Assembly (NCBI GenBank): GCA_013373515.1
Contig: JABXHR010000085.1
Location: forward strand, 1 to 50,713
DNA length: 50,713 bases
Direction of reading: 5' to 3'
DNA from: Gammaproteobacteria bacterium
GTDB lineage: Bacteria; Pseudomonadota; Gammaproteobacteria; JABXHR01
Notes under the pieces: generated by a model
What the model was told of the DNA's origin: nothing
Database searches by the model: none
Seen by the model: only the letters and a program-made list of their open reading frames with translations
Translations under genes and position numbers: made by a program
Shown here: one piece after another, positions 29,736 through 33,548 of the stretch
How positions within the stretch are numbered: position 1 is the first letter of the stretch
Layout: each line of letters starts with the position of its first letter

Positions 29736-30663
29736 AGGTCATGCCTTTCCATGACAAGCCATGCCAAATGTCAGCCACTTGCATTCGCTTGGCCCCTGGT
29801 TTTTGAATTTCGAGAAGGCGAATGGTGCCGTCTGCCGTCGCCACCTCAACGCCCGCTTTGGAGACCTCGACGATCTCTCCTGCGCTGGCCGCAGTGGCAG
29901 ACCCGGCCTCGGCATCCCAAATTTTGATAGTATCTGCGCCGAGTTCCGCAAAGCAGCCTGGATAAGGATTAAACGCCTTGATCTGCCGCAGCAAGGTGGC
30001 CGAATTTTGCGACCAATCTAACCACCCTTCAGCTTTACTGAGTTTTGCTGCATAGGTTGTCCCTTCCTCCGGCTGCGCGCGGGCAGTGAGCTCTCCTGCC
30101 AGAAGTTTGGGCAAGGATTCCGCCAGCAGCGAACCTCCCAGTGTCGCGAGGTGCTCGGTTAAGCTCGATGCGGTATGCGCGCCAATTGGCGTCGTCACTC
30201 GAGCCAAGATCGGACCAGTGTCCAGCCCCTCATCCATCTGCATCAAATCAACGCCGGTGTATTCATCGCCCGATTGAATCGCGCGTTGAATAGGCGCCGC
30301 CCCACGCCACCTCGGCAGCAACGAGCCATGCAAATTGACACATCCCAATCGGGGCATTTCAAGCACTGCTTTTGGCAGCAATAAGCCATATGCCACCACG
30401 ATCAGCAAATCCAACTGCTCAGCCGCCAATGCTGCCTGCGCCGATTCGTCACGCAAGGACACAGGCTGGCGTACTGGCAGACCTGCAGCAATCGCCAATT
30501 GCTTGACCGCAGAGGCTTGCAGCTTGCGTCCGCGTCCAGAGGGACGATCAGGCTGCGTGTACACCACCGTCGGATTGCTACCCGCATCCAGCAGCGCTTG
30601 TAACGCTGTCGCGGCAAACGCTGGCGTGCCCGCGAACCCTATTCGCAATGCAGAATCAATCAC
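29710..30663 (-). CDS. fmt: Methionyl-tRNA formyltransferase
   Basis: Formylates initiator Met-tRNA using 10-formyl-tetrahydrofolate. With GTG 30663 as start the product is 317 residues, as in E. coli, opening with [20 protein letters not shown]. Other marks are [14 protein letters not shown] near residue 35, the folate-site loop with [15 protein letters not shown], and [18 protein letters not shown] near residue 141. GTG 30663 overlaps the def stop by eight bases and is preceded by GGAAAAA, so I prefer it to the longer frame reaching 30699. The gene pairs functionally with def. Confidence 0.96.
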
Positions 30664-31156
30664 GTTTGAGTTTTTCCATTTTTTTGCGAATACGGTCACG
30701 CTTCAGACTCGACAGCCCATCGATAAACAGCTTGCCGTCCAAGTGATCAATTTCGTGTTGGATGCACGCCGCGAGGAGCCCTTCGGCTGCCATCTCATAA
30801 GACTCGCCACTGCGATCCAAGGCTCTAAACGTCACCTGAGCCGGGCGCGTCACGTTGTCGTGCACGCCGGGAATCGACAAACACCCTTCCGAGCGCTCCG
30901 CCGTCTCCGACGAGGCAGTTACGATCATTGGATTGATAGCCACAATGGGGCTGTCACCTGCCTCGGAGCAGTCCATCACCACCACGCGCTTGATTACGTT
31001 GATCTGAGTCGCAGCCAACCCAACCCCTTCAGCGTCGTACATAGTCTCCAGCATATCGTCGACAAGCGTTTGAATCTCATCATCAATATTCTGGACTTCT
31101 GCCGCTACCTTACGAAGGCAGGGATGGGGAAAAATCATGATGTCACGAATTGCCAT
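30656..31156 (-). CDS. def: Peptide deformylase
   Basis: Removes the formyl group from the N-terminal methionine of new proteins; Fe2+ or similar metal enzyme. The 166-residue product shows all three motifs: GVGLAATQ near residue 45, EGCLSIPG near residue 90 and the metal-binding HEIDH near residue 133. It is the first gene of the long leftward cluster running to the acyltransferase at 20653, and its promoter should lie in the 91-base gap shared with the rightward gene at 31248. Confidence 0.97.
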
Positions 31157-31247: not shown

Positions 31248-32444
31248 ATGCAAACGGGAATTTTATCGGAAAATCGTGTCCTTAGGGTTGCGATCATCGC
31301 AACGCTGACACTTTTGACAAACCACAGCGCAAATGCAACTGACGACGGCGGGCTGCCGATGGTGAATCAACTGCCCACGCTAAACAGCGAACTCTATCAA
31401 ACGGAGGAGTTCAAAACCCAGCGCGCGGTACTTGGCTATTCCTCGGAATTGCCTGCAATTGTGGATATAGGCACGCCGGTGGAAATCGGCCAGCTTCCTC
31501 AGCCCGCACACACTGACATCGGCGCAGCCCCTATCGCAACCGCTGCGCCCGCGCCAACCACCCAACAGTACAGCTATGACAGTGTGGCTGCCGAGCCCTC
31601 ATCCATCGCGCTACCCACATTTCAATCCACACCGGCGATCAAATCTGGTCAGGGCTACATCGTCGAGCAAACCATCGCAGGCAACCCTTATTATTTCAAT
31701 CGTCCGACATTTGATCGCAAAGACAACTACTCAACGCGCTCAACCTACGAGGCCGAGACATCCAATTTGGACATCACCGAGAGTGGCGGTTACCCGACGG
31801 TCCCTGTCACGCGAGGGGTTCGCTTCAGCGCGCTCCCCGAACAAGCTGAACTCGACCGATTGGCCGATTTGCCCAACGCTTGGCCGCATCTCTATACCGT
31901 TATCAGCGGCAAACCCACTGTACAGGCCATCGAATCGGGACGTTCCCTTGGCGGCGTGGGCGATCGCGTAATTGCGGATTTTAGTCGCTATCCCACCGGG
32001 ACGGTGTTGCGTACTTATGTGACAGAGGGCAACAGCGAAGTCTCCGTACCCACGGCAGAAATTGTGGTTCAAAGAACTGGCCCTGACGGCGTTGCACAAA
32101 TCACGCGTGCACATCGCGAAATCAGAATTGGCGATCATATTTTAAGTACGCTCGAAGTGAGCATGCTGAGCAATCTCAGCCAGCAAGCCAACATTGCCAG
32201 TGCACAAATCGTAGAAACACCGGGCTCGGTAATCGGTGCAATTCCTGGTGGACTGGTGTACATCAACAGCAATGCGTTTAGCGTCGGTGATATCCTGCAG
32301 TTTAGTGATGATCGAGCCGACCGCTATGCCCGAGATAGTGTAAGCGACATTCAAATCGTCTCCGTCGATGGACGCTACAGCGTGGGCCGCGTCCTCAGTG
32401 CAACTCGCCCGGTTGAAGTTGGCTTTGAATTGGCGATGAACTGA
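31248..32444 (+). CDS. DprA-linked exported protein related to LysM-family proteins but without LysM motif
   Basis: A 398-residue protein, probably exported (hydrophobic residues 11-26, then ANA). The first half is low-complexity, rich in P, T, A and Q. From about residue 208 it resembles the C-terminal domain of the LysM proteins encoded beside dprA in many gammaproteobacteria: SGRSLGGVGDRVIADFSRYP, then REIRIGDHILS near residue 294, GGLVYINSNAFSVGDILQF near residue 333, and VGRVLSATRPVEVGFELAM at the end. I see no LysM repeat; the segment HLYTVISGKPT may be a remnant. Its job is unknown; relatives are thought to bind peptidoglycan. It is read toward dprA with a 66-base gap. Confidence 0.68.
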   Translation: MQTGILSENRVLRVAIIATLTLLTNHSANATDDGGLPMVNQLPTLNSELYQTEEFKTQRAVLGYSSELPAIVDIGTPVEIGQLPQPAHTDIGAAPIATAAPAPTTQQYSYDSVAAEPSSIALPTFQSTPAIKSGQGYIVEQTIAGNPYYFNRPTFDRKDNYSTRSTYEAETSNLDITESGGYPTVPVTRGVRFSALPEQAELDRLADLPNAWPHLYTVISGKPTVQAIESGRSLGGVGDRVIADFSRYPTGTVLRTYVTEGNSEVSVPTAEIVVQRTGPDGVAQITRAHREIRIGDHILSTLEVSMLSNLSQQANIASAQIVETPGSVIGAIPGGLVYINSNAFSVGDILQFSDDRADRYARDSVSDIQIVSVDGRYSVGRVLSATRPVEVGFELAMN

Positions 32445-32510: not shown

Positions 32511-33548
32511 ATGACCCCACTCGCCATATTTTTAAGCACACGGTATACCCCGAGCCAAAAGCAGGCGCTCTATGAAGCGCCTGAGCGGTTCACCGCCAAC
32601 GATGAAGAGCTGGCACGCCTCGAACAGCACCTCGAATGGCAAGCCAAACACACCACCCATCACATCATCGAACTAGGGTCACCACATTACCCAACGGCCT
32701 TACAACAAAGCGCCACCCCCCCAAAGTTTATCTTCGCCACTGGTGATCCAGAGCTACTTAACCTTCCTACCCTATCGATTGTCGGCAGTCGAAAATGCAC
32801 CAAAGAGGGGTATTTAACCGCCAAAAGCTGGGCGCAAGAATTGGCGACCAATGGGTTAGTGATTGCCTCTGGCCTTGCAGAGGGCATCGACAGTGCAGCG
32901 CATGATGGTGCGTTGTGCGCAGAGGGCTACACTATCGCCTACATGGGCACCGGCGCCAACAGGATCTACCCCCGCCGCAATCACGACCTTGCTAAGCGTA
33001 TCGCAGAACAAGGGCTTCTGGTCACAGCGCTACCGCTCGATAGCGAGCCCCGCAAACACCACTTCCCGCAGCGCAACCAACTGATTGCCACCAATACACT
33101 CGGCGTGCTGGTGGTGGAAGCCAGTCTCCGCTCAGGCTCATTGATCACTGCAAAACTCGCCGCTGACGCGGGCAAATCGGTTTTTGCCATCCCTGGCTCA
33201 CGGCATAACCCGGTGACCGAAGGATGCCACCACTTGATCCGCCAAGGCGCAGAGTTGGTCACCCAAACCGGGCACATCTTGCAATCGCTGCTACCCCACT
33301 TGCCAGTCGATCTGTCTGTCATCGAGTCATCCTTGCACCAAGACACCAAAAAAGCGCCCCCCGAAGTCCAAAACCCAATCACAGAAACCATTCTGTCCAA
33401 CATGGGATTTGAGCCAATTTCTATCGATCAACTCAGCGTTGACACAGGTTTGAGAGCAGAAGAGATTGCATCGTCAATGCTCCTGCTAAGCTTAGAGGAT
33501 CAAGTGCAATCACTTGGCGGCGGTCGTTATCAAAGAATAAAAAAATAA
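32511..33548 (+). CDS. dprA: DNA-processing protein DprA
   Basis: Single-stranded-DNA-binding protein that loads RecA during natural transformation. The 345-residue product has the Rossmann-like DprA core: LSIVGSRKCTKEGYLTAKSW near residue 88, VIASGLAEGIDSAAHDGAL near residue 118, MGTGANRIYPRRNHDLA near residue 144, FPQRNQLIATNTLGVLVVEA near residue 185 and SGSLITAKLAADAGKSVFAIPG. A winged-helix-like tail follows (ILSNMGFEPISIDQLSVDTG). The start ATG 32511 has a weak ribosome-binding site (GATGATCGGCG upstream). Its presence does not by itself show that the host is competent. Confidence 0.95.
   Translation: MTPLAIFLSTRYTPSQKQALYEAPERFTANDEELARLEQHLEWQAKHTTHHIIELGSPHYPTALQQSATPPKFIFATGDPELLNLPTLSIVGSRKCTKEGYLTAKSWAQELATNGLVIASGLAEGIDSAAHDGALCAEGYTIAYMGTGANRIYPRRNHDLAKRIAEQGLLVTALPLDSEPRKHHFPQRNQLIATNTLGVLVVEASLRSGSLITAKLAADAGKSVFAIPGSRHNPVTEGCHHLIRQGAELVTQTGHILQSLLPHLPVDLSVIESSLHQDTKKAPPEVQNPITETILSNMGFEPISIDQLSVDTGLRAEEIASSMLLLSLEDQVQSLGGGRYQRIKK

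Follow-up and report, generated by a model that had tools for sequence, protein, structure and literature searches.

What does a gene in the slot of tsaP encode when its product carries no LysM domain? We address this question for positions 31248 to 32444 (forward strand) of a 50,713-nucleotide stretch of gammaproteobacterial DNA (contig JABXHR010000085.1), the whole of which we call the window. TsaP (type IV pilus secretin-associated protein) helps, according to passages of two papers, to anchor the secretin to peptidoglycan (PMC8811193, PMC9239104). According to passages of the first, deletion of tsaP had no effect on pili in P. aeruginosa (PMC8811193, citing Koo 2016) and lowered transformation about 70-fold in A. 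baumannii (PMC8811193). Neither result in these passages separates the LysM part of TsaP from its C-terminal part, and natural variants that lack one of the two are of interest for that distinction.

RESULTS

The gene lies in the usual tsaP slot

The open reading frame begins with an ATG at 31248, its stop codon ends at 32444, and it is intact over 398 codons; the four sequence strings on which an earlier note on this DNA was built are all present in it. On its upstream side lies an opposite-strand gene (30656 to 31156, minus strand) that, from its sequence, we take to be def, encoding peptide deformylase. The downstream neighbor that marks the slot is dprA (32511 to 33548, plus strand), whose product finds matches in 100 of 114 genomes, and further downstream follow what are presumably topA, tsaC, and hemF, likewise named by their sequences. 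In other genomes, the position upstream of dprA is occupied by a LysM protein at 26 of 29 comparison loci (23 recognized by pattern; L009, L024, and L033 by eye). In two of the remaining loci (L026 and L027) a TsaP-like frame is absent at this position, and in the third (L030, from G001, a genome of the same family as the window genome) the frame upstream of dprA is truncated at the 5' end. One LysM protein from this slot (L006), compared with the PDB, matched the TsaP of entries 6ve2 (chain O; E, 5e-106) and 3jc8 (E, 3e-30). According to its title, 6ve2 contains a TsaP heptamer in complex with a PilQ 14-mer, chain O being P. aeruginosa TsaP. The 398-aa window protein, LysM-less and TsaP-like as detailed below, is encoded in this usual slot, between def and dprA.

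The C-terminal half is related to the tandem domains of TsaP

Residues 219 to 394 match the C-terminal half of TsaP by hhalign, with both tandem domains in order. The E value was 1.3e-5 against 26 full LysM-TsaP proteins and 4.2e-7 against 97 TsaP rows, 10 of which, meant as C-terminal halves, still included LysM; with the LysM parts of those 10 trimmed it was 5.6e-7, and against 105 rows (the 97 plus eight LysM-less relatives) it was 1.2e-8. When the G001 protein was added to the query, the values became 8.3e-12 (97 rows), 1.6e-12 (trimmed), and 2.9e-13 (105 rows), the G001 protein alone giving weak matches (E, 0.0008 to 0.0065). In controls against the 105-row profile, the best of 200 shuffles of residues 201 to 398 reached an E value of 0.015, and the best of the 37 other window frames of at least 200 codons reached 0.073. 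The match to the dprA-adjacent family at 5.6e-7, against a best control of 0.015, bears out the relationship to the C-terminal domain of the LysM protein that the earlier note had proposed, with the start at about residue 219 instead of 208.

HMMER matches of the window gene were weak (E, 0.0086 and 0.010 with LysM-TsaP profiles and 0.00013 with a third profile), and the window gene nevertheless ranked first and its G001 counterpart second of 371 open reading frame segments with all three. Its match with profile A3 is circular, because A3 includes the window row (profile A1 used 21 of the 26 LysM-TsaP rows, A2 and A3 used 18 each, and A4 used 46 of 80 fetched loci). Whole-genome HMMER searches with LysM-TsaP profiles did not find the window gene at an E value of 0.001 or below; the match at 2.3e-9 in the window genome (G000) is, by eye, a BON+LysM protein on contig C258. 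Likewise, a whole-protein search across 56 genomes returned only the window protein's own genome, a pattern search of genome contigs gave 52 matches with none confirmed, and a sequence search of the PDB gave no relevant match. A scan of viral contigs with TsaP rows, which returned mostly LysM stretches, was discarded.

By these hhalign matches, the C-terminal half of the window protein is homologous to the domain tandem at the C-terminal end of TsaP. The first domain (about residues 219 to 305; 31902 to 32162, plus strand) is predicted to be a beta structure as in TsaP, like the C-terminal domain of FlgT, with block pLDDT values of 90 to 96; the second (about residues 313 to 398; 32184 to 32441, plus strand) is collinear by hhalign to residue 394, with block values of 54 to 92.

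Divergence on this scale raises the thought of a decaying remnant, a TsaP that lost LysM first, whose rest is now drifting and which has little function left. Identity to the TsaP rows is 14 to 23%, both the window and the G001 rows lack a loop in the second domain, and the window DprA row is long-branched, as expected of a fast-evolving lineage. We nonetheless consider decay unlikely: the frame has stayed open throughout, its third-position G+C (0.57) compares with 0.59 to 0.63 in four neighbors, G001 keeps a collinear copy upstream of dprA at 29% identity to the window protein, and the genome retains pilus machine genes (see below).

The predicted fold agrees with TsaP

The full-length AlphaFold model was built from 47 rows, TsaP rows among them (mean pLDDT, 63; pTM, 0.35). 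Among 868 Foldseek matches of the model in the PDB, chain O of 6ve2 alone had an E value of 0.001 or below (4.5e-6), in a superposition that is not rigid (TM score, 0.19/0.32; rmsd, 22 over 240 columns). With VIA-align the same TsaP chain was the only one of 997 to reach a Z score of 8 (9.5, over model residues 214 to 310). For the second domain, TsaP of 3jc8 gave a Z score of 6.1 over residues 313 to 394, below the level where Z is telling. Because TsaP rows built the alignment of the model, the resemblance to TsaP cannot count as evidence separate from the homology; the predicted fold agrees with that homology and is no proof of it.

The same comparison brings up FlgT, since the first C-terminal domain also resembles this flagellar protein (Z, 7.4 for 8z5n and 6.5 for 3w1e, below the level where Z is telling and amid unrelated ATP synthase chains at 6 to 7), and two of the LysM-less relatives described below have sub-threshold matches to the Pfam family FlgT_C (E, 0.012 and 0.06). 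That the window protein belongs to the flagellar ring, as a FlgT-like protein, and not to the pilus is, however, extremely unlikely. PilQ-bound TsaP matches better, and the gene slot is that of tsaP. Moreover, Pfam finds no FlgT_C in the window protein and none over cut-off in its genome, where the best E value is 0.4.

A P/T/A/Q-rich arm stands in the place of LysM

The N terminus (about residues 1 to 30; 31248 to 31337, plus strand) is by eye a probable signal peptide, with a helix at residues 6 to 28 in the model and, also by eye, no lipobox cysteine. It is followed by an arm rich in P, T, A, Q, and S (about residues 31 to 178; 31338 to 31781, plus strand) that is mostly predicted to be disordered and takes the place of LysM. 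P, T, A, and Q together make up 37% of residues 31 to 180, 42% of residues 82 to 180, and 23% of residues 210 to 398, in line with the earlier description of a P/T/A/Q-rich segment replacing LysM. Residues from about 179 to 217 (31782 to 31898, plus strand) are a possible remnant of the linker that follows LysM in TsaP: the hhalign match with the 105-row profile begins at residue 179, facing the VKLSPxxR linker of the TsaP family, and it begins at 219 to 220 when the profile is made without LysM-less rows.

A Pfam scan of the window protein with the E limit set to 10, whose filters remove most matches weaker than about 0.1, listed no LysM, and an NCBIfam scan listed nothing. In the full-length model, residues 69 to 186 and 188 to 196 have pLDDT values below 50, and short helices are placed at 45 to 50 and 53 to 62. 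Residues 30 to 215 modeled alone gave no LysM fold (mean pLDDT, 47; no strands and one short helix), in a single-sequence prediction that is weak evidence and cannot exclude a fold. The absence of a LysM motif, noted earlier from the sequence, thus holds in Pfam as in structure prediction, neither model predicting a hidden LysM fold in the N-terminal half.

We also considered whether the LysM part had become a separate gene. The window genome has three LysM matches at an E value of 0.001 or below, of which, by eye, one is NlpD-like, one is a BON+LysM protein, and one is a LysM protein whose tail resembles a binding protein; none of them is a TsaP half. At locus L003 (contig C276 of this genome), LysM is fused to a tail that by eye resembles a periplasmic substrate-binding protein.

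LysM-less TsaP proteins occur elsewhere in the class

The LysM-TsaP profile matches 295 of 369 genomes of the class, some via other LysM proteins, and by eye all the matches listed start at or before model position 26, so that they cover LysM. We followed up 87 genomes picked for a weak, middling, or absent match (46 plus 44, with 3 in common), setting aside the others, which include 54 unlisted genomes without a match, G019, G032, and some middling ones (e.g., G008, G139, G223, G278, and G304). At least 12 of the 87, from eight family codes including that of the window, have LysM-less TsaP proteins: the window genome, G271, G364, G252, G348, G105, G069, G060, G007, G050, G188, and G292. Pfam found no LysM in the window protein or in the 10 relatives scanned, and G060 was judged by eye. 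The count leaves aside G207, G226, and G316, whose frames are broken or partial, and G001, whose protein lacks its N terminus. The TsaP frames of G316 (L133) and G226 (L168) contain internal stop codons and may be pseudogenes or assembly errors; a TsaP match in G330 (C27:71999-72943) lies in an open frame given as 24327 aa, which looks like an artifact.

Ten of the 11 other LysM-less genes adjoin dprA, that of G060 (L270:3302-4054) being located away from it. The G060 protein is LysM-less and TsaP-like, with no known wall-binding part in either the protein itself or PilQ. The eight relatives from G271, G364, G252, G348, G105, G069, G060, and G007 share with the window protein the lack of LysM and the presence of the TsaP C-terminal half. 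They differ from it in their greater similarity to LysM-TsaP, with hhalign E values of 1.8e-16 to 4.3e-54 against LysM-TsaP rows and a match starting between residues 20 and 107, and in their shorter length of 251 to 318 aa.

A quick DprA tree (68 rows, with 29 of the 80 fetched loci used), in which 40 of 64 inner branches are weak, requires seven changes of the LysM-less label if G001 is counted as LysM-less and six if it is not; three changes are forced by well-supported branches (G001 counted). Since shuffled labels need 11.2 changes on average, the label is also clustered. The DprA row of G001 groups with a Granulosicoccaceae row and one other, both of which have LysM (support, 95), and the long-branched window row is unplaced. 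Judging from these sequences, LysM has probably been lost on more than one occasion. In the same tree, G271 and G364 (L268 and L271) fall in a four-row clade (support, 100) with Cobetia and Halomonas rows that have LysM, and the loss in the G271/G364 clade is possibly recent. The end branch of the window DprA (2.43) is the second longest of the 68 rows, after that of G007 (3.86).

OmpA replaces LysM in one family

The three remaining relatives, of family code f50, combine an OmpA domain with a divergent TsaP C-terminal half and are encoded beside dprA (L273:3498-4751 in G050, L274:3213-4445 in G188, and L275:2934-4205 in G292). The OmpA domain (Pfam PF00691; E, 2e-14 to 1e-16) is found where LysM would stand, behind an N terminus that by eye is of the lipoprotein type. 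Their C-terminal halves matched LysM-TsaP rows by hhalign with E values of 7e-8, 2e-8, and 1.3e-9 (2e-11 for the three rows together), and 100 shuffles of one row gave a best E value of 0.031. Because an OmpA domain replaces LysM, wall binding may be kept in these proteins.

The pilus machine and PilQ AMIN domains

The window genome encodes PilQ (468 bits), PilB (778 bits), and, side by side, two PilT-family proteins, all over cut-off. A single AMIN domain scores over cut-off in this PilQ (residues 300 to 388). AMIN domains are described in a passage of a paper on M. xanthus as binding peptidoglycan and recruiting PilQ to the poles (PMC10653833). PilQ itself is over cut-off in eight of the nine LysM-less genomes examined, a set outside which G105 and G069 fall, the exception being G348. 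AMIN stretches number two each in the PilQ of G271, G007, G364, and G252 and one each in G000 and G001. In terms of scanned genomes, AMIN is over cut-off in the window genome, in G001, and in four of the five other LysM-less genomes outside f50, the scan not extending to G348, G105, and G069. The best PilQ frame of G060 (448 aa) has no AMIN domain, and in f50 the AMIN matches of PilQ are below threshold in two of three genomes and absent in the third. AMIN as a general substitute for LysM is ruled out by these last two cases.

The f50 proteins also bear on the window arm, which might bind the wall by a new, unrecognized mode and so preserve anchoring. Another module can evidently occupy the place of LysM, and in f50 this coincides with a PilQ whose AMIN matches are sub-threshold or lacking. 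Still, we regard a wall-binding arm as very unlikely in the window protein, given a composition like that of a tether, the lack of any Pfam or NCBIfam match, and the lack of a predicted fold in the single-sequence model.

DISCUSSION

The gene at 31248 to 32444 likely encodes a LysM-less TsaP variant, a reading that draws on sequence comparison and under which the protein would form a belt around PilQ and leave the hold on the wall to the AMIN domain of PilQ. We class it as a LysM-less variant, distinct from TsaP proper, since a search for LysM gave none. With its signal-type N terminus, the protein would be exported to the periplasm. There, its tandem C-terminal domains may surround PilQ as a belt or as spikes, by analogy with P. 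aeruginosa TsaP in 6ve2, in which the part bound to PilQ is, we assume, this same pair of domains. The P/T/A/Q-rich arm might act as a tether, and the cell-wall hold of the pilus machine would come from the AMIN domain of PilQ and not from this protein. The window lineage, like others, has probably lost LysM.

The earlier note went on to suggest that the essential function resides in the C-terminal part and not in peptidoglycan binding. What stands of this is the role of the C-terminal part as the conserved core, which LysM-less TsaP proteins in seven further family codes also support; the remainder goes too far. The dispensability of wall binding does not follow: in f50 the OmpA domain may take over this role, and most of the other genomes scanned have AMIN domains over cut-off in PilQ. 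Rather, we think it fairly likely that the core role of TsaP is to form a belt around PilQ and that its wall anchor can be exchanged, most lineages having LysM, one family OmpA, and several lineages, including that of the window, no anchor at all. If so, wall anchoring would not be the defining function of TsaP, and the anchoring of the secretin to the wall would be a lineage-specific choice, which TsaP shares with the AMIN domains of PilQ. The natural LysM-less and OmpA-bearing variants offer ready-made tests of the role of TsaP as a PilQ belt, in surface sensing, and in anchoring. Of practical note, annotation that relies on the LysM domain misses part of the TsaP family. A brief literature search found no published description of LysM-less or OmpA-bearing TsaP, which may nevertheless exist in print.

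In comparison with known systems, the flagellar basal-body protein FlgT (3w1e, 8z5n) may resemble the window protein in the fold of one C-terminal domain, at Z scores below 8, and is set apart from it by another gene context and the lack of an FlgT_C sequence match. The f50 fusion, to which the Francisella OmpA-like lipoprotein FTT0831c/FTL_0325 is similar in make-up, resembles the window protein in its position beside dprA, its lack of LysM, and its divergent TsaP C-terminal half, and differs in its lipoprotein-type N terminus and in the OmpA domain that replaces LysM. TsaP itself, as represented by P. aeruginosa 6ve2 and the M. xanthus model 3jc8/3jc9, differs from the window protein in having LysM where the latter has a mostly disordered P/T/A/Q-rich arm, in the loop of the second domain, which is shortened in the window protein, and in sequence, given the low identity. 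The two have in common the slot upstream of dprA, a C-terminal half that matches in order over both domains, and a genome that encodes PilQ.
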